Positions 5,406 through 28,008 of a DNA stretch of 64,000 nt are shown piece by piece. Both the position numbers and the translations under genes were made by a program. Position 1 is the first letter of the stretch; the number at the start of each line of letters is the position of its first letter. Under the pieces are notes generated by a model that made no database searches, was not told the DNA's origin, and saw nothing but the letters and a program-made list of their open reading frames with translations. The DNA comes from Planctomycetota bacterium. Lineage in GTDB: Bacteria; Planctomycetota; Planctomycetia; Pirellulales; Pirellulaceae. The stretch lies in assembly GCA_016872725.1 (NCBI GenBank), contig VGZC01000030.1, forward strand, positions 1 through 64,000, in the 5' to 3' direction.

Positions 5406-6434
5406 CTACAGATCGAGATTGGTGATCGGGTTGCTGTCCTGCAGGAACGCGAGCAGGGCCAGCGTACGGTAATCCATCGTCTGTGACAGGAAGTGCACGG
5501 ATCCATCCGCGAAGGTGAACTGCGCGCCGGTGGAGTGCTTGCTTCCGAATACCCATGCGTACGTCTTTCGGTCGGCGCGGCCTTGGTAGGGAGCGTTGAT
5601 ATGCCAGTCGCGGGCGTAGAGCAACCAGTTCGCGTCCGTTGGCGGGAGAATGGCGGTGGACGTGATCCCTTGCACGATGCGTCCATGGCAGCAGGTGTGG
5701 GATCCGGTCATGCCCCACGGACCGTACGCCGACGAGGTTTTCCATTGGGCCCCGCCCACGGCCTCGCCGATCGCCAGCACGTTGCTGGACCCGTCGAGGA
5801 TATCCTGGAACCCGGCCGCGCCGTCGTTCCCGAACACGCCGCGCCGGATGTCGGCGGCGAGATTACCCCAGGCTCGATCGTAGTCCGTATGGACGCCCGT
5901 CGAGAAGAAGTAGTTCGTGCGATACGCGTTGAGCATCGAATAGAAGTTGGTGCCCGCCTCGTTCCGCCGTTCGCCCTTTCCGGGGCTCGACGGGCATTCC
6001 AGGATCGTGACCCGCGAGTTGTACAACCCGTTGTTGATCGCGTCGTTGCCGGCGACCGCATGGCCGTAGGGCGACGACATGCTCGAACACACGCCGAAAT
6101 TGTACATATCGGAGATGGTGCCCAATTCGAGGAACGGCGCGAGGAGCATCCAGCCGGTCGTGTTCTTCACGCCGCCCCGCGCGGCGTGGTAGGCCGCGTT
6201 GTCGTAGCGGCCCGAGCCGAGCAGGGCGGGCGGAAACACCTTATGGGTGTCGTGGTAGTTATGCAGAGCCAATCCGAACTGTTTGAGATTGTTGCCGCAG
6301 CTCATGCGCCGCGCGGCTTCCCGCGCGGCCTGGACGGCCGGAAGCAGAAGCGCCACCAAGATGCCGATGATGGCGATCACCACCAGCAGTTCCACCAGCG
6401 TGAACCCTCGATTTCGTCGTTGAAACAACGCCAT
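5406..6434 (-). CDS. DUF1559 domain protein with type IV prepilin N-terminus
   Basis: 342 residues. The start at 6434 has AGAGGAGGT six bases upstream. The N-terminus RGFTLVELLVVIAIIGILVALLLP is a class III (prepilin) leader with Gly-Phe cleavage site and Glu at +5, followed by VQAAREAARRMSCGNNLKQ, the constant entry to the DUF1559 domain (SBP_bac_10). The domain continues with LHNYHDTHKVFPPA and ends FADGSVHFLSQTMDYRTL. This family is greatly expanded in Planctomycetota; members are thought to be pseudopilin-like surface proteins, but no function is proven. The protein needs a prepilin peptidase; the A24-like protein at 367-1572 may not be active. Confidence 0.93.
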   Translation of the reverse strand: MALFQRRNRGFTLVELLVVIAIIGILVALLLPAVQAAREAARRMSCGNNLKQFGLALHNYHDTHKVFPPALLGSGRYDNAAYHAARGGVKNTTGWMLLAPFLELGTISDMYNFGVCSSMSSPYGHAVAGNDAINNGLYNSRVTILECPSSPGKGERRNEAGTNFYSMLNAYRTNYFFSTGVHTDYDRAWGNLAADIRRGVFGNDGAAGFQDILDGSSNVLAIGEAVGGAQWKTSSAYGPWGMTGSHTCCHGRIVQGITSTAILPPTDANWLLYARDWHINAPYQGRADRKTYAWVFGSKHSTGAQFTFADGSVHFLSQTMDYRTLALLAFLQDSNPITNLDL

Positions 6435-6759
6435 GGCCGGACCTCCTCTAACCAAACCCCAGAACTGTCGAATGACAAAAAAAATAAGAACGGTTCCATC
6501 GGGTTGGAATCGCGATGGAGCGAGACATTCAGACAGGCTTCGCAGAGTCTACGCGTTCGGCGGACCGATTCGCAAGCGATTTCTTGAAAAAAATCCCTTG
6601 GCGCCCGCGCAACGGGCCTGCCCGCTTGGGGGGCGACCGCCGACCCGCGTCCCGTCATGGACACGGCACCATGCCGGAAGTACAACCGCGCGGACCGCGG
6701 GCAGTTCCGCGCTCGAAGGTTAGGATTCTTGGAAACCGCGAATCTCGGGAGGCCTTCCC
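6435..6759. other. Divergent intergenic region
   Basis: 325 bases between the DUF1559 gene (-) and the beta-helix gene (+). The stretch at 6474-6488 is unusually A-rich for this genome and lies about 40-55 bases upstream of the DUF1559 start, so it is a likely promoter region for that gene. No RNA gene or ORF is supported. Confidence 0.4.
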
Positions 6760-9785: not shown

Positions 9786-9961
9786 ATTGACCTCGCCTTG
9801 GATGGCCGTTTTCCGATACCATACGGCGGCATGAGTCCGAATCAACGGACCGCACGGATGCGGGTCCGCGCGTTGGACCGGCGGGCTGAGCGGCCCGCCG
9901 GCCCGTCGTCTCGCGCCGATCGCGGCCGAAACCCGCGCGACCGAAGCCTGAAGGAATGGGC

Positions 9962-12900
9962 ATGAATGAAACGCAACGGTTCGACGTGTACCGTTCGATG
10001 GCCGTCGCGCGGCGCGTGGACGAGATCGAGCAGGAGATGGTGCGTCGCGGCGAGGGCTACTTCCACGTGTCGGCCGCCGGACATGAAGGCTCGGCGATGC
10101 TCGCCCCGTTCCTGCGGCCCGGCGATTGGCTCTTGCCCCATTACCGAGACAAGGCGTTGATGCTTGCCCGCGGATTCCCCGCGCGGGGTTTCTTGGATGC
10201 CGTTCTTTGCAACGACGGATCGGCGTCGAAGGGGCGGCAGATCTCGGCCCACTTGAGCGACCCGGACCGGCGGATCGTCAGCATGGCGGGGCCCGTCGGC
10301 AATGCGACGCTGCACGCCGCCGGGATCGCCGCGGTCGTGAAAGCGAGCGAGCCCGGCATGATCGTGGTCTGCTGCCTGGGCGACGGAACGACTCAGGAAG
10401 GCGAAGTCTACGAGGCGATCGCCGAGACCGCGCGCGAGAACCTCCCCGTCCTCTTTGTGATCGAGGACAACCGCTGGGCGATCTCGACGCATACCGCGGG
10501 CCGGACGTTTTATCGGCATCGGGGAGGATGGTCGAGCGAATTCCATGGCATCCCCATCGACCGGATGGATGGCCGGCTTCCCGAACAGACGCTCGACGTC
10601 TTCGAGCGTCTTGTCGCGGCCGTCCGGTCGGGAAACGGCCCTCGACTGGTTGTGATGGATGTCGAGCGATTGGCGAGCCATACGAACGCGGACGATCAGC
10701 GCATGTATCGTGATGAAGGAGAAATCCGGCGCGCCGCGGCGACGGGCGATCCGTTCCAAAACTATCGATCGTGGCTGCTCGAGCGCGGTGCCGCGCCCGA
10801 TGCCCTCGCGCGGATCGACGAGGAAGCTCGACGGATCGTCGCGCATGCCGAATCCGAATCGCTCGCGCTCGGCGATCCGATCGTCGAGCGATCGTCGCGC
10901 ATGCCGATTCACGTGGAATGGACGCATCCGTCGCGCGAGCGGACCGCGGGCATCGTGCCGGGCGGGCTCGCGATGAAGGACGCGATCCGGGGCGTCCTGC
11001 GCGACCGCCTGGAACACGACGAGCGGGTCTGGTGCTGGGGCCAGGACATCGAAGACCCCAAAGGCGACGTGTTCGGCGTCACGCGCGGGTTGAGCACGGC
11101 GTTTCCGGGCCGCGTCCGCAACGCGCCGCTCGCCGAAGCGACGATCGTCGGAGCGGCGGTCGGCCGCGCGCTGGCGGGCCAGCGGCCCGTCGCCTTCGTG
11201 CAATTCGCCGACTTCCTGCCGCTCGCGTTCAATCAGATTTTCTGCGAGATGGGAACGATGCACTGGCGGTCGAACGGCGGATGGCGCGCGCCGGTGATCG
11301 TCATGGCGCCGAACGGCGGCTACCGGCCCGGCCTGGGCCCGTTCCATTCGCATTCCATGGAATCGATCCTCGCCCACGTGCCGGGCATCGACGTGTTGAT
11401 GCCTTCGACGGCGAGCGACGCGGCCGGATTGCTCAACGCGGCGTTCGCCTCGGAGCGTCCGACCCTCTTTCTCTATCCCAAGAGCCTACTCAATGATCCC
11501 GCGCACGCGACGGCCCCGCGCGTGGATGACCAGTTCGTGCCGATCGGCGTCGCTCGAAAGGTCCGCGCCGGCCGCGATATCACGCTCGTCGGATGGGGCA
11601 ACACGGTCCGGCTCTGTTCGCGCGTCGCGGAGACGCTCGAGTCGGCGGGTGTCGAGGCGGAGGTGGTCGACCTGCGATCGATCTCGCCGTGGGACGAACA
11701 CACGGTCCTCGCGTCGGCCGAACGGACCGCTCGGCTCCTGGTCGTCCACGAGGACAACCTCACGTGCGGCTTCGGCGCCGAGATCCTCGCGACGGTCGCG
11801 GAAAAGGCCCGCGTTCCCGTCGCCATGCGGCGCGTCGCGCGCCCCGATACGACCCTTCCGTGCAACTTCGCGAACCAGTCCGAACTGTTGCCGTCGTTCC
11901 GGACCATCTTGGATGCGGCCGCCGACCTGCTGCGGCTCGATGTCGAATGGCGCGAACCCGCCGCGCGGCCGGAAGACGGAACACGGATCATCGAGGCGAT
12001 CGGGTCGGGGCCTTCCGATGAAGCGGTGACGCTCGTGGAATGGCGCGTCGAGCCGGGCGCGAACGTGACGCGCGGCCAAGTCGTCGCGTCGCTGGAGGCC
12101 ACCAAGAGCGTGTTCGACTTGAGCGCGCCGTGCGATGGCGAGGTCGACCGTCTCCACGCGGAACCGGGCGAATCGGTCGCCGTGGGACGTCCCTTGCTCA
12201 CGCTGCGGGCCGAACGATCGGAGTCGCGGGTGCGGGCCGTCGCCTCCGAATCGGCCGCGGTTCCCGTATTGGCGCGACGCCCCAATGCGCTGGCGATCCA
12301 CGTCGCGCATGCCGACGGAAAACGGCGGATGTACGACGTCGGCGTCTCCTCCGTCGCGACCACGACCGGCGGACGCGTCGTCACCAACGAGGAATTGCTC
12401 GGCCTCCACGCTCCAATGACCTCGAACGACGTCCTGCGGCGCACGGGCATCGAACAGCGGTACTGGGCCCTTCCCGGCGAAACGGCCGTCGGACTCGCCG
12501 CGAAAGCCTGCTGGTCGCTCCTCGACCGCGAACGCCTCCTCATCGATGATCTCGATCTGGTCATCTGCGCGACGACCAGCCCGACATCCGTCACGCCGTC
12601 GATGGCCTGCCAGGTGCTCAGCGCGCTGGCCAACCGGCGGACCGGCTCGTACCTGCAAGCCTACGACATCAACGCCGCGTGCTCGGGATATCTCTACGCG
12701 CTCCAATCGGGATTCGATTTCCTGCAGAGCCGCCCCGACGGGCGCGTGCTCGTCGTGACGGCCGAACTGCTCTCTCCGCTGCTCAACCCAAACGACTTCG
12801 ACACGTCGATCCTGTTCGGCGACGCCACCAGCGCGACGGTCCTCTACGGCGAATCGCACATCGACCGAGCGCAGGCCCAGCTCTACCGGCCCGAACTCTC

Positions 12901-13288
12901 GGCGAACGCCGAGGACGGCAGCACGCTGTCGGTACCCCTCGCCCACGACGGCTATATCCGGATGAAAGGCCGGCGCGTCTTCACGGAAGCCGTTCGCGCG
13001 ATGGTCGCCAGCCTGAACCGCGCGTGCGACCGGCAAGGCCTGACCGTCGATGACCTCGCGCTCGTCGTGCCCCACCAGGCGAACCAGCGCATCCTCGACG
13101 CCATCCGGAACCGCATCCCCGTTTCCGTCTACAGCAACATCCGCCGCTACGGCAACACGTCGTCCTCGAGCATCCCCCTTTGCCTCTCGGAATTGCTCGA
13201 AACGACACCCGCCGAGAGCCGCCTGGGGTTGTGCGCGTTCGGAGGAGGATTTACGTTCGGGGCCGGCATCCTTCGCAAAACCGCGTGA
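9962..13288 (+). CDS. Fusion: 2-oxoacid dehydrogenase E1 alpha + E1 beta + lipoyl domain + KAS III
   Basis: One 1108-residue polypeptide with four modules. Residues about 5-320: E1 alpha, with HYRDKALML and the thiamine-diphosphate motif GDGTTQEG...EDN (about 140-170). Residues about 330-665: E1 beta, with EATIVGAAVGRALAG and VVHEDNLTCGFGAEI. Residues about 670-750: a lipoyl/biotinyl domain with the lysine in EATKSVFD (about K715) where ETDKA is usual. Residues about 770-1108: FabH-like KAS III with the complete triad, Cys907 (NAACSG), His1038 (VPHQAN) and Asn1065 (YGNTSS). No E2 acyltransferase or E3 is fused. AAGGA six bases upstream supports the ATG at 9962 over 9956. The domain order suggests oxidative decarboxylation of a (branched-chain?) 2-oxoacid, loading of the lipoyl arm and delivery to KAS III as a fatty-acid primer (inference). 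No tell-tale of frameshift fusion is seen. Confidence 0.9.
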   Translation: MNETQRFDVYRSMAVARRVDEIEQEMVRRGEGYFHVSAAGHEGSAMLAPFLRPGDWLLPHYRDKALMLARGFPARGFLDAVLCNDGSASKGRQISAHLSDPDRRIVSMAGPVGNATLHAAGIAAVVKASEPGMIVVCCLGDGTTQEGEVYEAIAETARENLPVLFVIEDNRWAISTHTAGRTFYRHRGGWSSEFHGIPIDRMDGRLPEQTLDVFERLVAAVRSGNGPRLVVMDVERLASHTNADDQRMYRDEGEIRRAAATGDPFQNYRSWLLERGAAPDALARIDEEARRIVAHAESESLALGDPIVERSSRMPIHVEWTHPSRERTAGIVPGGLAMKDAIRGVLRDRLEHDERVWCWGQDIEDPKGDVFGVTRGLSTAFPGRVRNAPLAEATIVGAAVGRALAGQRPVAFVQFADFLPLAFNQIFCEMGTMHWRSNGGWRAPVIVMAPNGGYRPGLGPFHSHSMESILAHVPGIDVLMPSTASDAAGLLNAAFASERPTLFLYPKSLLNDPAHATAPRVDDQFVPIGVARKVRAGRDITLVGWGNTVRLCSRVAETLESAGVEAEVVDLRSISPWDEHTVLASAERTARLLVVHEDNLTCGFGAEILATVAEKARVPVAMRRVARPDTTLPCNFANQSELLPSFRTILDAAADLLRLDVEWREPAARPEDGTRIIEAIGSGPSDEAVTLVEWRVEPGANVTRGQVVASLEATKSVFDLSAPCDGEVDRLHAEPGESVAVGRPLLTLRAERSESRVRAVASESAAVPVLARRPNALAIHVAHADGKRRMYDVGVSSVATTTGGRVVTNEELLGLHAPMTSNDVLRRTGIEQRYWALPGETAVGLAAKACWSLLDRERLLIDDLDLVICATTSPTSVTPSMACQVLSALANRRTGSYLQAYDINAACSGYLYALQSGFDFLQSRPDGRVLVVTAELLSPLLNPNDFDTSILFGDATSATVLYGESHIDRAQAQLYRPELSANAEDGSTLSVPLAHDGYIRMKGRRVFTEAVRAMVASLNRACDRQGLTVDDLALVVPHQANQRILDAIRNRIPVSVYSNIRRYGNTSSSSIPLCLSELLETTPAESRLGLCAFGGGFTFGAGILRKTA

Positions 13289-15612: not shown

Positions 15613-18600
15613 ATGATGCGCAGTCCGCTTACTTTTCGCGTGTCGTCCGTGTTCGGGTGGGTGATGGTCGGGATCGGACTGGTTGATGGCCATCCACTCG
15701 CCGCTCGGGCGGCCGATCCGGCGATCTACTCCGATCGCCCGAACGCCGTCGCGTTTCCGCCGCAACGCGCGAAGTTCGTCCGGTTTGTGATCCACGGCAG
15801 TACCGGCGGCCAGCCTTGCATCGATGAACTCGAAGTCTTCGCGAACAAGGGAACCGACAATCTCGCGCTCGCCGAACGCGGCGCCAAACCGGAGGCTTCG
15901 TCGTGCCTTTCGGGCTATCATCAGCACGCGATCGCCCACCTGAACGACGGCCGATACGGCAACGAGTTCAGTTGGATTTCGGCCGGCGAATCGGACGAAT
16001 GGGCTCAGATCGAACTCGCCGAACCGGCGGAAATCGCCAAGGTCGTCTTCTCGCGGGACCGCGATCGGCAATACGCGGACCGGGTCCCCATTCGATTCGA
16101 GATCCAACTCTCGATGGACGGCCTGGAATGGACGACCGTGCGGCGGGTCGAATCGCGGGCCGGTGAAGTCGCGTTGCACCGACCGGGTGGGCCCGGAAAT
16201 CTGCCTCCACCCGCGCCGTCCCCCGTTCCGCTGGAACACGCGGTCGCGTCGTCCGACGCGTTATCCGATGGCATGCTGCGCGAGGCGTTGCTCGGCGAGG
16301 AGCATGCCTGGCTCAAGGTCCACGGCCACGCCGACCTGAGCGATCGATTGATACCGTACAACGGCCGCGTCCAAGAATACCCGCGGCGTTTGGCCGAGGA
16401 CCGCGTTTCGCTTCCGACCTTCGCATCGCCGCCGAGCCTCGATGGCCGGATCGACGACGCATGTTGGAAGTCGGCATCGCGCGGCGTCGCCCGTGTCGCG
16501 CACCCATTGGACTTCGACGTCGGACCGCTCGTCGAATCGGCCGTTCTCGCCGGACATCACGGCGACGATCTCTACTTGGCGATCACGGTGAACCGCTTAC
16601 TCAGTTCGCACGTCGCCGTGATTTCCTCGGCGACCGGCGCCGACATGGGGCTCCTGCGCATCGACGGCGATCGGCTTGTGTTCGAGCGATACGCGGCGGG
16701 TGGCGGCGTCGAACGGAGCGAACCGATTGATGGAGCATGGAACGCCGATTACACGTGCATCGAGGCGCGGATCCCGCTCGGATTCTTCGACGGCTGCCGC
16801 GAAACGGGCCTTCGGATCGGACTGGGGCTTGGCGGCCGCCATACGCCGATCCGCGGACAAGGCGTGAGCTTCACGCGGTTTTCGCGCATCGCGGTCGCCC
16901 AGGTCGGGCCGGCCATTCGCGGCGTGTTTCAGGTCCGCATCAGCGCGGCGCCCGGCGGTGGACCGATCACCTGCGCGCTGTCGGCGCCCGGCGTCGATCG
17001 AACGGTCGTGCTTGCGGCCGGCGAATCGATCGACATCGCCGTCGAGGGACAGGGAGCGATCGGACCGGAGGCGGCTTTCGCGGTGCGCACCGACGAGGGG
17101 GACGACTGCGAGATCCACCTCTTCCGATACGATCCGCTGTTCCGCGCGCTGACCTCATTCGAGGAAATGATCGAGCGGTTCGCGCGGCAAGGTCATGATG
17201 TGGCGGTCGAACGCCGTGAATGGACCGCGCTGTTCGAGCGGCATGCGGCGCTGTGCGCCGCGCCGGTTCCCGACCCGGCCGCCGAACGGCTCGCGTTCCT
17301 CGACGCGCGCCGCGCGAAACGAAAACTCTTTTTCCGCGAACCCGGATTGACCTCGATCGAAAACATCCTGTTCGTGAAGCGGCACGCGTTCGAGCCTTCG
17401 CACAACTACAGCGATTTGCTCGACGCGCCCTATCGTCCGGGCGGCGGCGTCTTCGTCCTGCGGATTCCGCGCGTGGACGGACGCCTCGATCCCGACCGCG
17501 CCCGCGCCGACCGCCTTTTTGAATCGGGAGGGGGTATCGCTCGGGATCCGGCGGCGTCATTCGACGGCAAGAAGGTCTATTTCGGATACCGGCCCTCGCC
17601 CGATGGGTACTTCCACATCATGGAGATGCGCTCCGACGGCGGCATGCCTCGTCCGCTCACCGACGGCCCGTTCCACGACTACTGGCCTTGCCCGCTCCCC
17701 GACGGCGGACTCGCCATGATCAGCACGCGATGCAAGGCGCGGTTCATTTGCTGGCGGCCGCAGGCGGCCGTCCTGTTTCGCATGGACGCCGACGGCAACG
17801 ACGTCCGACCTCTTTCGTACGCGAATCTGACCGAATGGGGTCCGTCGGTCATGAACGACGGACGCATCATCTGGCAACGGTCGGAGTATATCGACAAAGG
17901 CGCCGACTTCAGCCACACGCTCTGGGCGATCCGTCCCGACGGAAGCCATCCCGAACTGGTTTTCGGAAACGACATCATCCAACCGAACGGTTTCGCGAAC
18001 GGGCGCGAGGTGCCGGGCACGGGTGAGTTCCTATGCACGTTGATCTCGCATTTCGGCGACCTCAACGGCCCGCTCGCGCTGGTCGATCCGGGGCAAAGCA
18101 GATTCAGCGATCGGGCGATCACGACGTTGACTCCCGAAGTTCCCTGGCCGGGAAACTGGCCTCGCGAGGAGTGTTTCCGCGACGGCGTTCCGCTTACGCG
18201 GGATTGCTTCCTTTGCGCGCACGCGCCCCGCGACCAGTTCGGGCTCTGCGTGCTCGATCGATTCGGCAATCGCGAGATGCTCTATCTCGATTCGGAGATC
18301 GGCAGCATGTGCCCGACTCCGCTCATGCCTCGGCCGATCCCTCCCGCGTTGGAATCGAAGTTCGCCGACGAGGAGACGCCGGGCGAGCTGTTTGTGGCGG
18401 ACGTCTATCGGGGGATCGAGGAACAGGTTCCGCGCGGCACGATCAAGTTCTTGCGGATCAGCCAGGAAATCCGCGCGGACCTGGATCGCATGCCCGATGG
18501 AACGTATCGCTACGACCATCCCGAGTTCCAGGACTGGTACGCGACGCCGATCCACAAGGTGAGCGGTCCGTTCGGATGGCCGTCGTACGTCGCGAAGGGA

Positions 18601-19263
18601 ACGCTGGGTCTCGTGCCCGTCGAGGAAGACGGATCGGCCCGATTCCTGGTTCCACCCGGCAAGGTGCTCTACCTGCACGCGCTCGACGCGCGGCTCCACG
18701 AAGTCCAGCGGATGCGGAGCGTGGTGCAATTGCAGCCGGGCGAGAAGCGGGGATGCATCGGCTGCCACGAGAGCCGCAGCGCCGCGCCGCCCACCCGCGC
18801 TCCGCTTGCCCTCCTTCATCCGCCGCGCGAGGTCGAAGGTCCGTCGTGGGGCGCCGGCCCCTTTGCGTATGAAACGGTCGTGCAACCGGTATGGAATGAA
18901 CGATGCGTTTCCTGCCATAACGCGTCCGATCCTATGAAGATCGACCTGAGCCCCACGCTCGACGCCGAGAAAGTCCCGGCTTCCTACCGCACACTCATCG
19001 CGCAAGGCTGGGTGCATTACCTCGACTGCGGCTATAACTCGGGCGGAAACGAGAAGCGCGAACCGCTCACGTTCGGCACCATCAAGAGCAAGATCTGGAG
19101 CGTGCTCGATGCCGAACATCACGGCGTCGCGCTCACGCCCGACGAGAAGCACCGCGTCACGTGCTGGATCGACCTGAATTGCCCGCTATGGCCCGATTAC
19201 CAGTATCGGGGGAATCGTCCGAGCGTCGCGCCGACCGCGCCGGGTGTGGCGTCGAGCCAGTAG
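15613..19263 (+). CDS. HzsA-like di-haem protein with N-terminal discoidin and CBM9-like domains
   Basis: 1216 residues, exported (signal peptide to about residue 35, ending AARA). GGAG lies eight bases before the ATG. Domains in order: F5/8-type C (discoidin) at about 45-190, with FVIHGSTGGQPCIDELEVF and AQIELAEPAEIAKVVF; a CBM9/DOMON-like domain at about 265-440, starting SLDGRIDDACWKSASRG; then the region shared with hydrazine synthase alpha subunit. That region is a propeller with repeated PDG turns (SPDGYFHIMEMRSDGG, MNDGRIIWQRSEYID) and a middle domain with PRGTIKFLRI and VPVEEDGSARF. Two c-type haem sites follow: CIGCH at 1048-1052 and CVSCH at 1098-1102. The role is probably an extracellular or periplasmic redox enzyme acting on or near polysaccharide (inference). 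First of four paralogues in one direction, 20 bases before the second. Confidence 0.85.
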   Translation: MMRSPLTFRVSSVFGWVMVGIGLVDGHPLAARAADPAIYSDRPNAVAFPPQRAKFVRFVIHGSTGGQPCIDELEVFANKGTDNLALAERGAKPEASSCLSGYHQHAIAHLNDGRYGNEFSWISAGESDEWAQIELAEPAEIAKVVFSRDRDRQYADRVPIRFEIQLSMDGLEWTTVRRVESRAGEVALHRPGGPGNLPPPAPSPVPLEHAVASSDALSDGMLREALLGEEHAWLKVHGHADLSDRLIPYNGRVQEYPRRLAEDRVSLPTFASPPSLDGRIDDACWKSASRGVARVAHPLDFDVGPLVESAVLAGHHGDDLYLAITVNRLLSSHVAVISSATGADMGLLRIDGDRLVFERYAAGGGVERSEPIDGAWNADYTCIEARIPLGFFDGCRETGLRIGLGLGGRHTPIRGQGVSFTRFSRIAVAQVGPAIRGVFQVRISAAPGGGPITCALSAPGVDRTVVLAAGESIDIAVEGQGAIGPEAAFAVRTDEGDDCEIHLFRYDPLFRALTSFEEMIERFARQGHDVAVERREWTALFERHAALCAAPVPDPAAERLAFLDARRAKRKLFFREPGLTSIENILFVKRHAFEPSHNYSDLLDAPYRPGGGVFVLRIPRVDGRLDPDRARADRLFESGGGIARDPAASFDGKKVYFGYRPSPDGYFHIMEMRSDGGMPRPLTDGPFHDYWPCPLPDGGLAMISTRCKARFICWRPQAAVLFRMDADGNDVRPLSYANLTEWGPSVMNDGRIIWQRSEYIDKGADFSHTLWAIRPDGSHPELVFGNDIIQPNGFANGREVPGTGEFLCTLISHFGDLNGPLALVDPGQSRFSDRAITTLTPEVPWPGNWPREECFRDGVPLTRDCFLCAHAPRDQFGLCVLDRFGNREMLYLDSEIGSMCPTPLMPRPIPPALESKFADEETPGELFVADVYRGIEEQVPRGTIKFLRISQEIRADLDRMPDGTYRYDHPEFQDWYATPIHKVSGPFGWPSYVAKGTLGLVPVEEDGSARFLVPPGKVLYLHALDARLHEVQRMRSVVQLQPGEKRGCIGCHESRSAAPPTRAPLALLHPPREVEGPSWGAGPFAYETVVQPVWNERCVSCHNASDPMKIDLSPTLDAEKVPASYRTLIAQGWVHYLDCGYNSGGNEKREPLTFGTIKSKIWSVLDAEHHGVALTPDEKHRVTCWIDLNCPLWPDYQYRGNRPSVAPTAPGVASSQ

Positions 19264-19283
19264 TAACGAAAGGACTTCTTGGC

Positions 19284-22200
19284 ATGGGCGTTCGACGGAT
19301 GATCGCTGGCGCGGTGTTGGTTGCCGCCGGATCGACGTTTTCCGCAACGGTTCGCGCACAATCCCCGGGGCCACTCGCCGAGTTCGCGGGCGAGGCCGAC
19401 GATTCGCTCGCGCGGCGCATCGAACCCGGGTCCGACGATTCGGTCCTCCCCCGGGGCGTCGCGCCGGATGCGTTCGTCCAGCGCGTGCGACATCAAGAAA
19501 AAGTCGACGGCGACTCACGGGAAACGACGACTATCGATCCGGCGACCGGCTTGGTAATCGTCCGCACGTCGAGGTGGCACGCCGATCGGCGGCTCGTCGA
19601 ACTGCGAACGGTTGTGCGGAATGAAGGCGAGCGGGAAATCGAGCTTGAAGAAGCCGCCGTCGCCGATTGGCGATTCCGGGTCCTTGATGGCCAGGATGGC
19701 GCTCGGTATCGCACGCTCGCCTATCGCAACGAAACCTGGTACGGCTCAACATTCTGGACGGGGCCCGATTGGACGCGGGTCGGCAAGGACTGGCAACATT
19801 CGGGAAACGGTACGCCGAGCGTTCGCCGATTCCGCGCGCCGCGCGCGGGACATGTCATCATAACGGGAAGGGCCTACAAGGCGGACACGAACGGCGGAGA
19901 CGGCGTGGGACTCACCATCCGCCACGGCGCGCGGGATGTATGGCGGGCTGAAATCGCAGGGGACGACGCGGCGGGGGTGGAACCCCGCGTCGAACTCGAT
20001 CTCCACGAAGGCGACGCCGTCCGGTTCGTCGTCGACAAACGGGGGCAGATCACGTGTGATACGACGCGCTGGGACCCCGTGATCGCGTATGACGACGGCG
20101 AACGGTATCAGGCGTCGGGGGGTTTCCGAGCTTGCGAGGAGGCATCGCGGCCGGCGCGCGGCGATCGAGCGGGCAACGACTCGGATTTGGCGCGCGGCGC
20201 GTCGTCGCCGTGGCATTATGAAATGGAAGTCGCGCCGCGCGAATCGCTCGGACTTCCCCGTATCCACACCTACGCGCGCAATCTCGACCTGCGCGACACG
20301 CCCATCCTCGCCGGAGAATCGACCGAATGGACGCAGCGCGACGCGATGCCCGTGTTGATCCTGGCCGACGCGGAAGACAAGAGCGGGCTAGTCGCCGTGA
20401 TGCCGACCGATTCGCCTTGGATGGCGCGATCGACGATCGGCCGTGACGGCGTATGGCGTTTCGCGTGGCGATCGGGCGAGGCGGGCGCGCCTTCCGTGCG
20501 GGTCGCGCCCGGCGAATCGATGCGATTGCCGCCCGTTGTGGTCGGCGCCTATCGCGGCAACTGGCTCGCCGGCGCTCGACGATCGAACGAAATACTCCGC
20601 GCGGACGAACTCGACGGCATGCGCGCGACGCGCGATCGGTTAGCCGAATCGGCGAGCTGGTCGGCGGGTTCCCCCCGGCCCCATTCCGGCGGCCAGAATG
20701 GCGATGCCCAGCGGTCGACGCGCGAGCCGTTCGAGATCGACTTCTGGACGATGGTGCTCGATGATTGGAGGCGCCAGGACAAGCTGGATGGGCCGACGTC
20801 CGGCGCGCCGCGGGAAGCCGCGCGCCGGCATGCGGGATCGGCGCGTCGTCTGCTCACCGAACTGCGTGTCCGGAACGGTTCGGACTTCCTGGCGGACGAG
20901 GAACGACGGCTCGAGGAACTGGAACAGCGGGCGGCGGCGGAAGGAAGCGGGACCGAGGCGAACCGCGGGCTTTACCTCGCGATCCGCTGGCTCAAACGGC
21001 GGATCGCGCTCGCCAATCCCCTGCTGAACGGCCCGGTCGTTTTTTGCAAAAACGCGCCTACGTCGTACAGCCACCAGGTCATGCAGTACTACGGATGGCG
21101 AGCTCGGCCGGGCGGCAGCCTGTTCGTACTCGAACATCCCGGCCACTCGCTCCGCACGCGCGATATCCTCGACGGAAGGCTCCAGCACGGCAGCATCCTG
21201 GAGCCGCGGCTATCCTATGACGCGCGGCGCATTGTGTTCTCCTTCGTCGATTGTCCGCGGTTGGATTACGATCCGGACACACTGGACAACAGCGTCGATG
21301 AGGCGTTCTATCACGTGTATGAGGTCGGCGTGGACGGAACCGGGTTCAGGCAACTGACCGAGGGCCCGTACGACGACGTCATGCCGACGTATCTCCCCGA
21401 CGGAGGGATCGCGTTTTGTTCCTCGCGCCGGAAGGGGCACTCGCGATGTTTTGGCGGCCAGTTCAGCGGACGGTGGCAGGTTTACACGCTGCACCGGATG
21501 GACGCGGACGGCTCGAATATCCGGACGCTCTCGTATCACGACACGAACGAGTGGTTTCCCGCCGTTTCGAACGACGGCGCGATTCTCTACAGCCGATGGG
21601 ACTACATCGATCGCGACGCCGTGACGCACCAGAACCTATGGTCAACTCGGATCGACGGAACGAATCCGGTCGCCGTGTGGGGCAATGCGACGGAGAGCCC
21701 GCACTGCACGTTTCAGATCCAGCCGATTCCGGGTAGCTCGAAGATCGCCTTCACGGCATCGGCCCACCATTCGATCACCGCGGGCTCGATCGTGGTTGTC
21801 GATCCGGCGCGGGGCGATGATGGGGAACAGGCCCTTCGTCGCATCACGCCCGAGGTTCCGTTTCCGGAGGCCGAGGGGATGGACCTTCGCGAGTACTATA
21901 CGGCGCCCTCGCCGCTTTCCGAGGATTTTTTCCTGGTCGCCCACAGCGACAAGCCGCTCGTCTTCGAGCCCGGCGCGAACGACCCCGCCGCGCTCGGCAT
22001 ATACCTGCTGGACGCGTTCGGCAATCGGGAGTTCCTTTATCGCGATCCGAATATCGGCAGTACGAATCCGTGTCTGCTTCAGCCGCGCGACATGCCGCCG
22101 GTTGTGACGAGCGGTCTGGCGAACGACGCGCCCGATACGGGTGTCATGACGGTGGTCGACGTCTATGAAGGGCTCGGCGACGTCCCGCGCGGAACGATCA

Positions 22201-22994
22201 AGGAACTCCGGATCATCCAGATTTTTCCGAAGACGACGCATGTCGCCAACGCACCGTTGATCGGCATGGCCGGTGAGGAGAACGCGCGCGCCATTCTCGG
22301 CACGGTGCCGATCGAGGCCGATGGTTCGGCGCACTTTATCGTGCCGGCGCGAAAACCGATCCTGTTCCAGACGCTCGACCAGGACGGATTCGCCTACCAG
22401 ACGATGCGATCGCTGACGTACGTTCAGCCGGGCGAACGCACATCGTGCGTCGGCTGCCACGAGAGCCGGATGATCGCGCCGACGCGGGTCGACGCGCTCG
22501 CGGCGCGGCGCGCTCCGTCGATCATCGAGCCGGGAGAATTGGGCGGCCGGCCTTTTTCATTCGTCGAGATCGTGCAGCCGGTGCTCGATCGCCACTGTGT
22601 CGCGTGCCATGATGGGGAATCGCCCGACGGCGGCATCGATCTCACGGCGACGCCGCATGGAGGATTCACTCGATCGTATGTCGCGCTGTGCGGCGATCGC
22701 AATTTTTCGGGAGGAGGAACCAATCCCGTGAACGCGGCCGAAGCGCTTGTGCCTCGATTCGGGGCGCGCAATCGCATCCAAACAACGCCGCCCGGCGGCA
22801 TGTACGGCGCGCTCGGAAGCCGGCTCATCAAGATCCTCAAGGTCGGCCATCACGACGTCCGCTTGACGGATGGCGAATATCGACGCTTGGCCGCATGGAT
22901 CGATTGCAACGCCGTTTTTTATGGCGTCTATCACCCCGACGACCAGGCGAGGCAACTTCGCGGCGAGGTCTTCGGCATGCCGGACGTCCAGTGA
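19284..22994 (+). CDS. HzsA-like di-haem protein with an N-terminal beta-sandwich region
   Basis: 1236 residues, exported: MGVRRMIAGAVLVAAGSTFSATVRAQ is a clear signal peptide. The first roughly 480 residues differ from the other paralogues: an all-beta region with a possible carbohydrate-binding segment around GNGTPSVRRFRAPRAG. From about residue 600 it follows the family plan: FCKNAPTSYSHQVMQYYGW, propeller turns with PDGG and NDGAILYSRWDYID, PRGTIKELRI, VPIEADGSAHFIVPA, then haem sites CVGCH at 1055-1059 and CVACH at 1105-1109. It is 20 bases after the first paralogue and probably co-transcribed with it. Substrate unknown. In HzsA the CxxCH His of the first haem is followed four residues later by a ligand Tyr (as I recall it); here that position is Met. 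Confidence 0.83.
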   Translation: MGVRRMIAGAVLVAAGSTFSATVRAQSPGPLAEFAGEADDSLARRIEPGSDDSVLPRGVAPDAFVQRVRHQEKVDGDSRETTTIDPATGLVIVRTSRWHADRRLVELRTVVRNEGEREIELEEAAVADWRFRVLDGQDGARYRTLAYRNETWYGSTFWTGPDWTRVGKDWQHSGNGTPSVRRFRAPRAGHVIITGRAYKADTNGGDGVGLTIRHGARDVWRAEIAGDDAAGVEPRVELDLHEGDAVRFVVDKRGQITCDTTRWDPVIAYDDGERYQASGGFRACEEASRPARGDRAGNDSDLARGASSPWHYEMEVAPRESLGLPRIHTYARNLDLRDTPILAGESTEWTQRDAMPVLILADAEDKSGLVAVMPTDSPWMARSTIGRDGVWRFAWRSGEAGAPSVRVAPGESMRLPPVVVGAYRGNWLAGARRSNEILRADELDGMRATRDRLAESASWSAGSPRPHSGGQNGDAQRSTREPFEIDFWTMVLDDWRRQDKLDGPTSGAPREAARRHAGSARRLLTELRVRNGSDFLADEERRLEELEQRAAAEGSGTEANRGLYLAIRWLKRRIALANPLLNGPVVFCKNAPTSYSHQVMQYYGWRARPGGSLFVLEHPGHSLRTRDILDGRLQHGSILEPRLSYDARRIVFSFVDCPRLDYDPDTLDNSVDEAFYHVYEVGVDGTGFRQLTEGPYDDVMPTYLPDGGIAFCSSRRKGHSRCFGGQFSGRWQVYTLHRMDADGSNIRTLSYHDTNEWFPAVSNDGAILYSRWDYIDRDAVTHQNLWSTRIDGTNPVAVWGNATESPHCTFQIQPIPGSSKIAFTASAHHSITAGSIVVVDPARGDDGEQALRRITPEVPFPEAEGMDLREYYTAPSPLSEDFFLVAHSDKPLVFEPGANDPAALGIYLLDAFGNREFLYRDPNIGSTNPCLLQPRDMPPVVTSGLANDAPDTGVMTVVDVYEGLGDVPRGTIKELRIIQIFPKTTHVANAPLIGMAGEENARAILGTVPIEADGSAHFIVPARKPILFQTLDQDGFAYQTMRSLTYVQPGERTSCVGCHESRMIAPTRVDALAARRAPSIIEPGELGGRPFSFVEIVQPVLDRHCVACHDGESPDGGIDLTATPHGGFTRSYVALCGDRNFSGGGTNPVNAAEALVPRFGARNRIQTTPPGGMYGALGSRLIKILKVGHHDVRLTDGEYRRLAAWIDCNAVFYGVYHPDDQARQLRGEVFGMPDVQ

Positions 22995-23053
22995 GGGCCG
23001 GACAACGGGGTGAACGATCGGCTCCTTGTGTCGAGGAGTCTCGCGGATCGCAC

Positions 23054-23341
23054 TCAAACATTCAAGAGGCCGGCCCCTTGGATCGCGTCAAGCAGCACGA
23101 GGACTGCGGTGAGCGCGAGCGGCAGGGTCGCATTGTCGAGGCCATGGGGAGACAGTGCTTCAATAAGCGTGGCCGTGACACCGAGCGGAATCGCCACGAT
23201 CGTCGTCGACACGATCGCCGTCGCCGAGAACGGTTCGCAAAGGAAGACGCCGAATACGGTACCGGCGAAGAAGCGGACATCGGTCGCGCCCTCGTCAAGC
23301 ATCTCCGCTATCATGGATGGAGCGGGCGCGGAACTCGCCAA
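23054..23341 (-). pseudogene. Remnant of a phosphatidate cytidylyltransferase/polyprenol-kinase-like gene
   Basis: 95 codons, mostly hydrophobic. The end, LGVTATLIEALSPHGLDNATLPLALTAVLVLL, strongly recalls the C-terminus of the CdsA/SEC59/dolichol-kinase family (E-A-L-S-x-x-G-x-D-N). The rest of the enzyme (about 150 residues) is absent: upstream DNA on this strand is the tandem repeat and hicBA, in the opposite direction. It is best read as a 3' fragment left by a rearrangement. Assignment is from the C-terminal motif alone. Confidence 0.45.
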
Positions 23342-23354
23342 CGGTCGGATACGG

Positions 23355-23395
23355 CTTTTCCGAGGGAACTTTTCCGAGGGAACTTTTCCGAGGGA
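23355..23395 (+). repeat. 14-base tandem repeat upstream of hicBA
   Basis: CTTTTCCGAGGGAA occurs about 2.9 times in tandem (23355, 23369, 23383), ending six bases before the hicB start. The last GAGGG can serve as its ribosome site. Repeats immediately before an antitoxin gene may be an operator for autoregulation, or the scar of the event that placed the module here. Confidence 0.8.
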
Positions 23396-23400
23396 TATGT

Positions 23401-23616
23401 ATGATGCGATATCGCGTCCTCATTGAGCTGGATGAAGACGGCGTCTACGTCGCCGAAGTCCCGGCGCTTCCCGGTTGTATTTCGCAAGGGAAGACGCGTA
23501 GGGACGCAATCGACAACATCAAGGAGGCCATCGCCGGATATCTGGAGAGCCTTCAGGCACGCGGCGAACCCGTTCCTCCATCGATTGGCGAAGAGGTGGT
23601 GGAGGTCACACCGTGA
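23401..23616 (+). CDS. hicB: HicB-family antitoxin
   Basis: 71 residues: MMRYRVLIELDEDGVYVAEVPALPGCISQGKTRRDAIDNIKEAI is the HicB partial-RNase-H-like fold with the diagnostic PALPGC...GKTxxxAxxNIKEAI. It neutralises HicA. No C-terminal DNA-binding domain is visible, so this is a short HicB. The start at 23401 follows GAGGG by six bases; the frame extends upstream only through the tandem repeat. The stop overlaps the GTG of hicA (GTGA). Confidence 0.9.
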   Translation: MMRYRVLIELDEDGVYVAEVPALPGCISQGKTRRDAIDNIKEAIAGYLESLQARGEPVPPSIGEEVVEVTP

Positions 23617-23837
23617 CGGCATTGCCGGCCGTTTCCGGCCGTGAGGTGGTCAAGGCACTGGAGAAGGTCGCGTTTGCCCTCGATCGTCAGCGAGGCAGCC
23701 ACATGATTCTCCGACAGCAAGCCCCGCCTCACCGACGCTTGACCGTTCCCGACCATCAGGAGGTTGCCAAAGGGACATTGCGCGCGATCATTCGACAGGC
23801 TGGGCTAACCGTTGAGGAGTTCCGAGACCTACTTTGA
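23613..23837 (+). CDS. hicA: HicA-family mRNA interferase toxin
   Basis: 74 residues from a GTG start that overlaps the hicB stop. The double-stranded-RNA-binding-like fold is recognised by LPAVSGREVVKALEKVAF, the catalytic-His motif GSHMIL (His30), LTVPDHQEVAKGTLRAIIRQAGL and the final VEEFRDLL. HicA cleaves mRNA when not bound by HicB. The antitoxin-first order is the reverse of the E. coli hicAB operon but common elsewhere. All key residues are present, so it is probably functional. Confidence 0.92.
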   Translation: MTALPAVSGREVVKALEKVAFALDRQRGSHMILRQQAPPHRRLTVPDHQEVAKGTLRAIIRQAGLTVEEFRDLL

Positions 23838-23959
23838 CGGAATGGCCGCCTCGCGAGTCGCGACACGTCACTTTCCGCCCATCGCATGCGACGCCCGGAT
23901 CGCCTGATCGCCTCGCGGAATTCAGCGAAAGTCCTGCGACTTCGGCTTCGGCCCTTCTG

Positions 23960-23988
23960 TTGGCACGGCCCGGAAAACCGGCTAGAGT
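23960..23988 (+). promoter_or_regulatory. Good sigma70-type promoter for the third HzsA-like gene
   Basis: TTGGCA (23960-23965), 17-base spacer, TAGAGT (23983-23988): the best consensus match I found in the window. It lies 90 bases before the start at 24079 and downstream of hicA, so the third and fourth paralogues probably have their own transcript. Confidence 0.55.
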
Positions 23989-24078
23989 AGCTGTACATTC
24001 CCGAGTCTTCCCACCACGTCGCGGCGAGCCAGGAAAATCGTCGCGCCGATCACCATCATGCCCGGAAGGACGCGACGT

Positions 24079-27000
24079 ATGACGAAGGCATCGACGAACC
24101 TCACGGCCGATTCGCGGACGGCCTCGCGCCGGTTCCGATCCTGGTTCCTGGCCGGCTTGGCGATTGGACTTCTGGGAATGGTCGGCGAGGCGTCGAGCCA
24201 GCCGCCGTCCCAGCCTGAAGGGAAGCAGCCGAAGGGCGACGCGGCGTCCTACGACGCGCCGCCCGGTCCTTCGGCCTGTGCCCAGGAGGGCCAGACGTTC
24301 ACGATCGCGGCCTGGGCGTTCCATCGAGGAAACGCCAAGACATTCACGACGACGTGGGCCGACGCGGGTCCGATGGTCGCATTCAGCGGCGACTCGCCCG
24401 TGCTGATCGAATACGACATCGACTTTCCCGTGGCGGCCGAATACACGCTGAGCATCTACTACGCGGCGCAGGACGCGCGGCCCGTCGATCTGTTTCTGGA
24501 CGGCAAGTCCCACGGCAAGTGCTGCCGGTCGGCGACGGGGAGCTGGAACACGAGCGGCGCGAAGTGGGAAACGACCGCGACGCTTCCGATCGCGCAAGGC
24601 AAACACACGATCAAGCTCGTTCGCGACAATGATTTTCCCCACGTCGTCGCGCTGCGGTTCGCATCGTCCGTCCCTTTTCCGGAGGGATGGCAGCTCGTTC
24701 GCGATGGCGCGAGGAACCTCGACAGTCCCCCGCCCCTTCCGTCCTATGTGCGATACACGGCCGATTACGTCGACACGGCCGCGCTGCGGCGAGCGATCGA
24801 CGATCTCATGGCGACCCACGGGCCCGCCTACCCGCGCGGCGCGGATTATCTGAAGCGGCTGGATGAGCTGGAGAAGCGGGCTTCAAGCGGCGACAAGGGC
24901 GGCGACAAGGGCGGCGACAAGGGCGGCGACAAGGGCGGCGGCAAGGGCGGCGGCAAGGGGGCGCCCGAACCCGGCAAGGAGACGACCGCCGCGCTCGCCG
25001 CGCTCCGCCGTGAAGCGCTGCTCGATAACCCGCTCATCGATTTCCAAAACCTCCTGGTGATCCAACGCGACGCGAACGCGCCGAGCCTCGGGTTGCCGCG
25101 CAACTGGGAGAGCAATTCGAGCCTGCCGCACACGGGATACAACGACGAGATCGTCGTCGTGCCGATCCGGGGTGGAGACGACGCGCCGATGACGTCGGTC
25201 TTCAAGCCGGCGGACGGCCGATTCGTCGGCGATCTGGACCTTCATTACGACGCGGACCGCATGCTCGTTTCGATGCCCGCCGACAACGGGCGCTGGCAGG
25301 TTTTCGAGTTGCGGACGGACGGCACCGGCCTGCGGCGGCTCACCGGAGAACAGCCCGACGTCGACAGCTACGACGCGTGCTATCTCCCCAACGGCAAGAT
25401 CATCTTCACATCAACGGCGTGCTTCGCGGGTGTGCCGTGCGTCTACGGCGCCTCGCATGTCGCGAATCTCTATTTGATGAACGGTGACGGCAAGGAGATC
25501 CGCCAGCTCTGCTTCGATCAGGAACACGATTGGTGCCCGACCGTGATGAACGACGGCCGCGTGCTTTATACGCGGTGGGAATACACCGACACGCCGCACT
25601 CGAACACGCGGCTCCTGTTCCAGATGAATCCCGATGGAACGGAACAAGCCGAGTTCTACGGGAGCAACTCGTATTGGCCCAATTCGTTCTTCTACACGCG
25701 GCCGATCCCCGGACATCCCACGAAGGTCGTGTCGGTGATTGGCGGCCACCACGACAATCCGCGGATGGGCGAGCTGGTCGTGTTCGATCCGGCGATCAGC
25801 CGCCAGGAGGCGGGCGGCGCGATCCAACGCATTCCCGGCCATGGAAAGCCGGTCGAGGCGATCATCCGCGACGGTCTCACGACGAACAGTTGGCCGAAGT
25901 TCCTGCATCCCTATCCGCTGAGCGACAAGCACTTCCTGGTCGCCTGCAAGTTGACTCCCCAATCGCTTTGGGGCATCTATCTGGCCGACATCTTCGACAA
26001 TTTCGTGCTGATTCGGGAGTCGGCCGACCACGCGTTGCTCGAACCGGTTCCCCTGCGCAAGACACGGAAGCCGGCGGCGATCGGCGAGAAGATCGACCTG
26101 GCGAAGAAGGACGCGACAATCTACATCTCGGACATCTATGAAGGGGAGGGGCTGAAGGGCATCCCCCGCGGCACGGTCAAGTCGCTTCGGATCTTCACCT
26201 ATCATTTCGCCTATCAAAACATGGGCGGACTGCTCGGCGTGATCGGCATGGACGGACCGTGGGACATCAAGCGGGTGATCGGTACGGTGCCCGTCCACGA
26301 GGATGGCTCGGCGAAGTTCTCCGTTCCCGCGAACACGCCGATCTCGATCCAACCGCTCGACGGCGAGGGCAAGGCGCTCCAACTGATGCGGAGTTGGATG
26401 ACGGCCATGCCGGGCGAGAGTGTTTCGTGCGTCGGCTGCCACGGTTCGCGGAGCGACGCGCCGCGCACAAAGCCGACACTCGCTCAAATCCGCCCGACAT
26501 CGAAGGTCAAACCATGGTATGGGCCGACGCGCGGGTTTAGTTTCGCGCGCGAGGTCCAACCGGTGATCGACAAGTACTGCGTCGCGTGCCACGACGGGGC
26601 GCCCACGTCGGACGGCCGACCGATTCCCGATCTGCGCGGCACGGTGATGATCAAGGATTGGAGCTCGGTCACGCCCGGCAACGGCGGCGCCCATGCCGGA
26701 AAATTTTCGGTCGGATACGCCGAACTGCATCGATTCGTCCGGCGGCCGGGCATCGAGAGCGATTACCACATGCTCGAGCCCATGGAATACCACGCCGACA
26801 CGACGGAGCTTGTCCAGATGCTCTTGAAGGGGCATCACAACGTCAAGCTCGACGCCGAAGCGTGGGACCGGATCATCACGTGGATCGACATGAACTGCCC
26901 TTATCACGGAACGTGGGGCGAGGAACTCGATGATCCGGGCGCGCAGCGTCAACGACGTCGCGACTTGCTGAAGCTGTACGGAGGAGTCGACGACGATCCC

Positions 27001-27978
27001 GAAGCGGTGCCCGAATCATCGGGGACTTCGGTCGTATCGATTCTGCCGGATCCGGCTCCGGCGGCGCCCGCAACCGACATCGCCTGTCCCGGCTGGCCGT
27101 TCGACGCGGCCGAAGCGGCCCATCGGCAAGACGCGGCCGCGAAACAGTGGAATCCGAACGGAGGCGCTGCCCGCGCCGTGGATCTCGGGAACGGCGTCTC
27201 GCTCCGCATGACGCTCATCCCGCCCGGTCCGTTCGTGATGGGCCCGGCGGGCGGACTCGGTCCGACCCGCTCGGCCATCGAGCGGCCGTTCTGGATGGGG
27301 ACCCTCGAAATCACGAATCAGCAGTTCCAACAATTCGCGCCCGATCACGACAGCCGAGTGGAATCGAAGAACACGTACCAATTCGGCATCCACGGCTATC
27401 CGGCCAATCTTCCCGATCAGCCGGTCGTGCGGGTCACGTGGGACGAGGCGGCGGCATTTTGCGATTGGCTCACCAAGAAGACCGGGCAACGGTTCGCACT
27501 CCCCACCGAGGAACAGTGGGAGTACGCGTGCCGCGCGGGAACGGCGACGCCGATGTGGTTCGGCGATACCAACGCCGATTTCTCGAAGTTCGCGAATCTC
27601 GCCGACGCGAAGCTGACCGAGTTCGCGAGCGATCCCTACACGGTCGATACGCCGCTCGCATCGCCTCCCAAATACGACGACTGGATTCCCAAGGAATCGC
27701 GATACCTCGACGGCGCGTTGTTGACCGTCCCGCCGGGCCGCTACGGCGCGAATCCATGGGGCCTGTTCGACATGCACGGCAACGCGAGCGAATGGACGCG
27801 TTCGATCGTTCCAGGCTCGACGGACGCGGCCGGCGCGAACCTTTCGAAACGGATTGCACGGGGCGGTTCGTGGCGGGATCGCCCGGCGCGGGCCACGTCG
27901 AGCTTCCAGCTCGACTACCATCCATACCAGCGTGTGTACAACGTTGGTTTCCGTGTAATCTGTGAAGTCGGTGAATAG
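24079..27978 (+). CDS. HzsA-like di-haem protein with a C-terminal SUMF1 (formylglycine-generating-enzyme-like) domain
   Basis: 1299 residues. GGAAGGA eight bases upstream selects the ATG at 24079. Signal peptide to about residue 40. Domains: a beta-sandwich at about 65-210 (YDIDFPVAAEYTLSIYYA, a CBM-like pattern); an N-terminal helical segment; a G-D-K low-complexity linker (271-294); the HzsA-like propeller (NDGRVLYTRWEYTD); PRGTVKSLRI; VPVHEDGSAKFSVPA; haem sites CVGCH at 784-788 and CVACH at 834-838. Residues about 1040-1298 are a SUMF1/FGE-sulfatase domain (MTLIPPGPFVMG, PVVRVTWDEAAAFCDWL, LPTEEQWEYACRAG, GNASEWTRS, RIARGGSW, VGFRVI). The fused SUMF1 domain is probably a binding module rather than an active sulfatase-maturing enzyme (inference). 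It is followed after 30 bases by the fourth paralogue. Confidence 0.88.
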   Translation: MTKASTNLTADSRTASRRFRSWFLAGLAIGLLGMVGEASSQPPSQPEGKQPKGDAASYDAPPGPSACAQEGQTFTIAAWAFHRGNAKTFTTTWADAGPMVAFSGDSPVLIEYDIDFPVAAEYTLSIYYAAQDARPVDLFLDGKSHGKCCRSATGSWNTSGAKWETTATLPIAQGKHTIKLVRDNDFPHVVALRFASSVPFPEGWQLVRDGARNLDSPPPLPSYVRYTADYVDTAALRRAIDDLMATHGPAYPRGADYLKRLDELEKRASSGDKGGDKGGDKGGDKGGGKGGGKGAPEPGKETTAALAALRREALLDNPLIDFQNLLVIQRDANAPSLGLPRNWESNSSLPHTGYNDEIVVVPIRGGDDAPMTSVFKPADGRFVGDLDLHYDADRMLVSMPADNGRWQVFELRTDGTGLRRLTGEQPDVDSYDACYLPNGKIIFTSTACFAGVPCVYGASHVANLYLMNGDGKEIRQLCFDQEHDWCPTVMNDGRVLYTRWEYTDTPHSNTRLLFQMNPDGTEQAEFYGSNSYWPNSFFYTRPIPGHPTKVVSVIGGHHDNPRMGELVVFDPAISRQEAGGAIQRIPGHGKPVEAIIRDGLTTNSWPKFLHPYPLSDKHFLVACKLTPQSLWGIYLADIFDNFVLIRESADHALLEPVPLRKTRKPAAIGEKIDLAKKDATIYISDIYEGEGLKGIPRGTVKSLRIFTYHFAYQNMGGLLGVIGMDGPWDIKRVIGTVPVHEDGSAKFSVPANTPISIQPLDGEGKALQLMRSWMTAMPGESVSCVGCHGSRSDAPRTKPTLAQIRPTSKVKPWYGPTRGFSFAREVQPVIDKYCVACHDGAPTSDGRPIPDLRGTVMIKDWSSVTPGNGGAHAGKFSVGYAELHRFVRRPGIESDYHMLEPMEYHADTTELVQMLLKGHHNVKLDAEAWDRIITWIDMNCPYHGTWGEELDDPGAQRQRRRDLLKLYGGVDDDPEAVPESSGTSVVSILPDPAPAAPATDIACPGWPFDAAEAAHRQDAAAKQWNPNGGAARAVDLGNGVSLRMTLIPPGPFVMGPAGGLGPTRSAIERPFWMGTLEITNQQFQQFAPDHDSRVESKNTYQFGIHGYPANLPDQPVVRVTWDEAAAFCDWLTKKTGQRFALPTEEQWEYACRAGTATPMWFGDTNADFSKFANLADAKLTEFASDPYTVDTPLASPPKYDDWIPKESRYLDGALLTVPPGRYGANPWGLFDMHGNASEWTRSIVPGSTDAAGANLSKRIARGGSWRDRPARATSSFQLDYHPYQRVYNVGFRVICEVGE
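24889..24960 (+). repeat. 12-base in-frame tandem repeat (Gly-Asp-Lys-Gly)
   Basis: Six 12-base units, four GGCGACAAGGGC then two GGCGGCAAGGG(C/G), encode a GDKG/GGKG linker in the third HzsA-like protein. The period is a multiple of three, so copy-number change keeps the frame. Confidence 0.95.
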
Positions 27979-28008
27979 CCCACCATGCGTACGAGTTGGA
28001 GACGAATG

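Follow-up and report, generated by a model that had tools for sequence, protein, structure and literature searches.

A widespread one-chain fusion of 2-oxoacid dehydrogenase E1, lipoyl domain and ketosynthase III that may start carbon chains without coenzyme A

In textbook accounts, acyl-lipoyl groups are intermediates that an E2 acyltransferase passes on to coenzyme A (CoA). Could they instead be handed directly to a carbon-chain-forming enzyme? This question is raised by a gene in a 64,000-nucleotide stretch from a Planctomycetota bacterium of the family Pirellulaceae (contig VGZC01000030.1, positions 1 to 64,000; hereafter the window), which joins both halves of a 2-oxoacid dehydrogenase E1 (E1alpha and E1beta), a lipoyl domain and a beta-ketoacyl-acyl carrier protein (ACP) synthase III (KAS III) in one polypeptide (Table 1). 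Our best reading, to which we assign a probability of roughly two in three, is that this fusion would act as a single-chain, CoA-independent, 2-oxoacid-driven ketosynthase, that is, as a 2-oxoacid dehydrogenase in which KAS III has replaced E2.

The original prediction had described one uninterrupted chain of 1108 residues, and this is borne out by translation, Pfam and an AlphaFold model. The reading frame runs without a stop, with an alternative in-frame ATG at 9956 that would make the protein 2 aa longer. All Pfam domain matches exceed their curated cut-offs, including those in the KAS III part, ACP_syn_III (residues 901-964, 1.1e-16) and ACP_syn_III_C (residues 1022-1105, 1.6e-20), and neither an E2 acyltransferase domain (2-oxoacid_dh, PF00198; Pfam) nor an ACP domain is present in the protein. 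The model, computed with 36 sequences as input, has a mean predicted local distance difference test score (pLDDT) of 89 and drops below 50 solely at residues 775-787, inside a linker whose length (measured from G742 to V793) ranges from 47 to 85 residues across 79 relatives. In a Foldseek search, the model hit E1beta of the branched-chain and pyruvate types as well as FabH, and no structure among the 50 matches listed contained E1 together with KAS III. Since the E1 (alpha-beta)2 and FabH families are both twofold assemblies, the fusion enzyme is probably a homodimer.

A domain search and a survey of the four-domain order, both suggested by the original prediction, matched all domains and found the same order in 113 distinct full-length relatives, which form 102 clusters at 90% identity. 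Their hosts span at least nine phyla: Planctomycetota, Sumerlaeota, Spirochaetota, Lentisphaerota, Verrucomicrobiota, Kiritimatiellota, Cyanobacteriota, Myxococcota and Pseudomonadota. In a set of 60 relatives, 18 carried the full fusion, at 51-63% identity, and a scan of named genomes returned at least 80 fusion loci, spanning essentially the whole protein except in contig-edge cases. Among evenly drawn genomes, matches at E <= 1e-160 occurred in 36 of 388 from the GTDB phylum that includes Verrucomicrobia and Lentisphaerae and in 15 of 393 from the spirochaete phylum, counts that take in a few partial matches, including the locus L243 described below. The fusion is unevenly distributed, being present in roughly half of the family to which the window belongs and rare in Pseudomonadota. 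One relative (genome G015, locus L046) has its copy in two reading frames, as might be expected if assembly or annotation had joined separate genes, but we reject such an artefact as next to impossible. More than 100 genomes, cultured isolates and complete chromosomes among them (e.g., Devosia insulae DS-56 and Planctomycetales bacterium 10988), carry the full-length fusion, so that the refutation envisaged at the outset, separate genes in the relatives, fails outright. In L046 the frame is broken by one frameshift within E1beta (L046:9846-9894), away from the domain boundaries, which reflects either a sequencing error or a decaying gene.

In a tree of 79 fusions, phylum order is mostly followed, with few displacements. 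Set against non-fused relatives, the E1 part and the KAS III part each form one clade (98 and 100, respectively, in the Shimodaira-Hasegawa-like approximate likelihood ratio test, SH-aLRT); a single fusion event is therefore the simplest account, and the fusion was probably made once. A lipoyl-KAS III profile run against 398 Pseudomonadota and 294 Planctomycetota genomes gave no separate lipoyl-KAS III gene among the matches listed. Fusions scored at E 1e-147 to 1e-194 and plain KAS III at E ~1e-86 and weaker and, as the cut-off was loose, counts were taken from this bimodal gap.

Across the 113 fusions, Lys715, Cys907, His1038, Arg1043, Asn170, Glu392 and His462 are invariant, Asn1065 is found in 112 (the remaining one has a gap) and Gly142 of E1alpha in 111. 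Invariance of catalytic residues over so many distinct full-length relatives goes far beyond chance, and the complete Cys-His-Asn triad that had been claimed for KAS III stands. So does the candidate lipoyl lysine of the EATKS motif: in the model, Lys715 forms the turn joining strands 707-712 and 717-721, the type of hairpin turn in which the lipoyl lysines of such domains are located, and we predict that it is lipoylated. Lipoyl domains are beta domains of about 75 aa that carry this lysine in an E-x-x-K-A/S turn. The commonest form of the motif is EADKA (59 fusions), followed by EATKS (26). Note that a biotin-carrier reading of this domain is not favoured, as most members read EA[DT]K[AS] here and not the EAMKM of biotin carriers.

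From which donor, then, would the KAS III domain receive its acyl group? In E. coli FabH, the adenine of CoA is stacked between Trp32 and Arg151, Arg249 faces the ACP and Phe87 narrows the primer pocket. We aligned the fused domain to E. coli FabH and 41 stand-alone KAS III proteins, including those of fusion-bearing genomes. Trp occupies the Trp32 position in 39 of the 41 stand-alone proteins but in none of the fusions, and Arg the Arg151 position in all 41 versus, again, no fusion; by contrast, the ACP-facing arginine (Arg1043 in the window protein) is found in 113/113 fusions and 39/41 stand-alone proteins. The Phe87 position is Thr or Ser in 111 fusions. The domain shares 33% identity with Aquifex FabH (template modelling score, TM, 0.92 by target length) and falls below the NCBIfam fabH cut-off. 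These patterns suggest that the domain retains the features required for condensing with an ACP substrate and has lost those that hold CoA; with the CoA-holding pocket lost, a CoA-free chain start from keto acids appears probable.

The same residues bear on a different scenario, in which the fusion provides channelling only: its E1 and lipoyl parts would rely on a separate E2, acting in trans, for producing acyl-CoA, the ordinary primer for the fused KAS III. Canonical FabH does take acyl-CoA, the host genome encodes two E2 proteins, and the fusion could merely raise local acyl-CoA. Yet all fusions lack both adenine-stacking residues, which the canonical FabHs of the same genomes possess, no E2 gene was found among the called genes next to the fusion at the loci inspected, and KAS III takes the place of E2 in the chain order of a sister enzyme. 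We consider channelling of this kind quite improbable.

This sister enzyme comes from the E1 side of the family. The E1 of the fusion belongs to a subfamily in which alpha and beta are fused and which bears the signature GxDI-DPKGxVF; in the E1 tree, the outgroup nearest to the fusions is a protein with the motif EDPKGDVFG from a spirochaete-phylum genome (L243:1372-4563), a single-chain E1alpha-E1beta-lipoyl-E2. Its first three domains are as in the fusion, but its C-terminal domain is an E2 acyltransferase, not KAS III. Because this nearest E1 outgroup has E2 at that place, KAS III would stand where E2 stood, and the expected product of the fusion is consequently not acyl-CoA. Asp369, within the GDVF motif, is common to all fusions, to L243 and to a further relative, L197; the same position is Gly (KGGVF) in nine planctomycete relatives with fused E1alpha-E1beta and in three Streptomyces relatives. 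The planctomycete relatives mostly have a neighbour gene of the same cluster (E2-like and next door in seven of nine); in some cases this gene gives an E2-like lipoyl match. L197 (L197:7626-14689) encodes an E1alpha-E1beta-lipoyl protein without KAS III, alongside SET, WelO5-like, alpha/beta hydrolase, ATP-grasp and amidohydrolase proteins, and here the acyl-lipoyl group possibly has another acceptor.

For the CoA-independent ketosynthase we propose the following cycle. The E1 alpha and beta parts with thiamine pyrophosphate (TPP) would decarboxylate a 2-oxoacid and reductively acylate the lipoyl group on Lys715, and the lipoyl arm would bring the resulting acyl-dihydrolipoyl thioester to Cys907, at the point where an E2 would pass the acyl group to CoA. 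KAS III, using His1038 and Asn1065 and with an ACP docked at Arg1043, would then condense the acyl group with malonyl-ACP, the presumed extender, to give 3-oxoacyl-ACP and CO2, and the dihydrolipoyl group would be reoxidised by the cell's shared E3. The direct hand-off from lipoyl to Cys907, which lay at the heart of the original prediction, thereby gains support that is comparative rather than biochemical: every member lacks the two residues that stack on the CoA adenine, the triad and the ACP arginine persist, KAS III occupies the E2 position, and one member is accompanied by an ACP gene. The host genome contains LipA, two LplA/LipB-type ligases and one E3 above its cut-off, so that lipoylation and reoxidation could both proceed in trans. 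The earlier statement that E2 and E3 are absent consequently holds for the protein and its neighbourhood, but not for the organism, with its two E2 acyltransferases and E3.

KAS III might also take the acyl group from the lipoyl arm but pass it to an acceptor other than malonyl-ACP, as an acyltransferase or by joining two acyl chains in the manner of OleA or PpyS. Some KAS III homologues are known to act as acyltransferases or to condense acyl chains head to head, the fusion has no fixed fatty acid synthase partner, and the L197 protein shows other acceptors to be possible. What makes this alternative unlikely in our view is that, save for one gap, neither the triad nor the ACP arginine varies, as would be expected of a decarboxylative condensing enzyme, and that in a gammaproteobacterial member (L198) the stop of the fusion overlaps the start of a 78-aa PP-binding ACP gene (L198:2361-2597, minus strand). 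A screen of the other fusion loci found no second adjacent ACP gene; ACP-like genes lie ~3-4 kb from the fusion in L070 and L095. Also counting against other acceptors, a short-chain dehydrogenase/reductase (SDR) often lies downstream of the spirochaete members, one of them typed adh_short, and could, as a weak indication, reduce a 3-oxoacyl product.

As to the substrate, the best solved-structure match of the fusion E1alpha is the Thermus branched-chain E1, whose side-chain pocket we take to consist of alphaPhe66, Tyr95, Met128 and alphaHis131. The equivalents of the first two, Phe34 and Tyr61, are kept in all fusions, and position 94, equivalent to Met128, is Met in 109 of 113. The pocket thus leans toward branched or bulky 2-oxoacids without settling the matter, and a branched aliphatic 2-oxoacid would be the likeliest substrate. 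Pyruvate, which would start straight-chain fatty acids by way of acetoacetyl-ACP, is a rival on substrate only and compatible with the proposed mechanism. The fusion E1 resembles pyruvate dehydrogenases too, and a CoA-free acetyl primer would be plausible; the Thermus match with its mostly kept pocket residues and the Thr/Ser at the Phe87 position nevertheless leave pyruvate a somewhat doubtful candidate. A separate, ordinary KAS III exists in the host genome and in ten of ten fusion genomes tested, so that the fusion is an additional, dedicated KAS III and not the only chain starter, and its role as replacement of a sole FabH is rejected; a branched product, which the original prediction had envisaged as one option, is suggested by the E1 pocket and the Phe87 position.

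Several points weigh against the CoA-independent ketosynthase or parts of it. Loss of Trp32 and Arg151 speaks against CoA being bound in the way known from FabH, yet would also fit an acyl-ACP donor, and the stand-alone control consists mostly of Pseudomonadota FabH rather than of other ACP-using KAS III families. The fusions are related to one another and do not represent 113 independent events. Within the E1 pocket, the window protein itself has Ile at position 94, and position 97, equivalent to alphaHis131, is His in merely 61 fusions and Phe in 49; the fusion-specific Asp369 could also be a sign of an unusual 2-oxoacid. Finally, the gene being solitary in most genomes, its context does not give the acceptor ACP or the product, and a single operonic ACP was found, that of L198.

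Comparison with known systems places the fusion between several of them. The 2-oxoacid dehydrogenase complexes (branched-chain and pyruvate, E1 alpha2beta2) have the same E1alpha and E1beta folds, catalytic residues and lipoyl domain with hairpin lysine; unlike them, the fusion has KAS III in the E2 position and lacks an E2 acyltransferase or E1/E3-binding domain. FabH shares the thiolase fold, triad and ACP arginine, but the fused KAS III is without Trp32 and Arg151, has Phe87 changed to Thr/Ser and is attached behind E1 and lipoyl domains. Judged by its published description, the nearest functional precedent is Photorhabdus BkdABC, the source of the branched starter for stilbene and photopyrone. 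This Bkd system, whose BkdB component contains an ACP domain, is reported to form a 3-oxoacyl thioester, 5-methyl-3-oxohexanoyl thioester (PMC4578411), together with iso-fatty acids (PMC4578411, PMC3838401). In contrast to the fusion, it comprises three genes, and the BkdB ACP domain needs a phosphopantetheinyl transferase. Loading modules of the streptogramin A type (SnaE1-like) with an adjacent E1 have the same E1 subfamily (GEDI-DPKGGVF) and a lipoyl domain preceding a ketosynthase (KS), but retain E2 and ACP between the two, and their KS is a type I polyketide synthase domain, not KAS III; an isobutyryl starter is reported for pristinamycin II (PMC6963833). On three Streptomyces linear plasmids (L144, L145 and L146), a fused E1 adjoins a megasynthase, whose N-terminus in L144 and L145 is lipoyl-E2-ACP-KS, apparently a CoA-free loading module; the neighbouring genes suggest that these clusters are of the streptogramin type. 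No description of the E1-lipoyl-KAS III architecture was found in the literature searched, subscription papers lying outside that search.

In the window, the genes flanking the fusion are unrelated, encoding a HIT protein, a 157-aa protein without Pfam match, a MoCF_biosynth protein and a Band_7 protein, and the neighbourhoods examined revealed no conserved partner or pathway beyond lineage synteny. Further downstream (15613-31125, plus strand) lie genes for four large proteins (15613-19263, 19161-22994, 24058-27978 and 27985-31125), each with the hydrazine synthase alpha middle domain PF18582 and variously with F5/8-type, CBM_6 or FGE-sulfatase domains. A DUF1559 protein with an N-terminal methylation motif is encoded at 5406-6455 (minus strand). 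No tRNA was found in the window.

Table 1. Coordinates of the fusion gene, its domains and selected residues in the window.
Feature	Position	Strand	Details and evidence
Fusion gene (E1alpha - E1beta - lipoyl - KAS III)	9962..13288	+	1108 aa; translation, Pfam, AlphaFold model
E1alpha, TPP-binding (Pfam E1_dh, residues 10-299, 2e-35)	9989..10858	+	GDG 140-142, Asn170; Pfam, PDB matches, conservation
E1beta (Pfam Transket_pyr 336-511, 9.6e-26; Transketolase_C 529-638, 6.2e-31)	10967..11875	+	Glu392 (TPP N1'), His462
E1beta Asp369 in GQDIEDPKGDVFG	11066..11068	+	Asp in 113/113 fusions
Lipoyl domain (Pfam Biotin_lipoyl PF00364, residues 687-748, 4.9e-11)	12020..12205	+	Lys715 codon 12104-12106, within EATKS
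Lipoyl-KAS III linker	12209..12322	+	variable length; low pLDDT 775-787
KAS III (FabH-like), residues 792-1105	12335..13276	+	Pfam, alignment, structure match
Asp823 (E. coli FabH Trp32 position)	12428..12430	+	alignment; Trp in no fusion
KAS III triad Cys907 / His1038 / Asn1065	12680-12682 / 13073-13075 / 13154-13156	+	alignment
Phe946 (E. coli FabH Arg151 position)	12797..12799	+	alignment; Arg in no fusion

On balance, we lean toward regarding these proteins as a previously undescribed, widespread class of enzymes in which a single chain links decarboxylation of a 2-oxoacid directly to the start of a carbon chain. In this view, the arm of the lipoyl domain would replace CoA as acyl donor of the ketosynthase, after a one-time swap of E2 for KAS III. 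If this is true, amino-acid or sugar catabolism would have a CoA-free entry into fatty-acid or polyketide chains, with decarboxylation coupled to C-C bond formation within one polypeptide, and the occurrence of a lipoyl domain outside an E2 protein would be accounted for. For engineering, such an enzyme would be a compact part with which to supply branched or unusual primers, and its existence would hint at lipids or signals yet to be discovered in Pirellulaceae, Spirochaetota, Verrucomicrobiota and Devosia.

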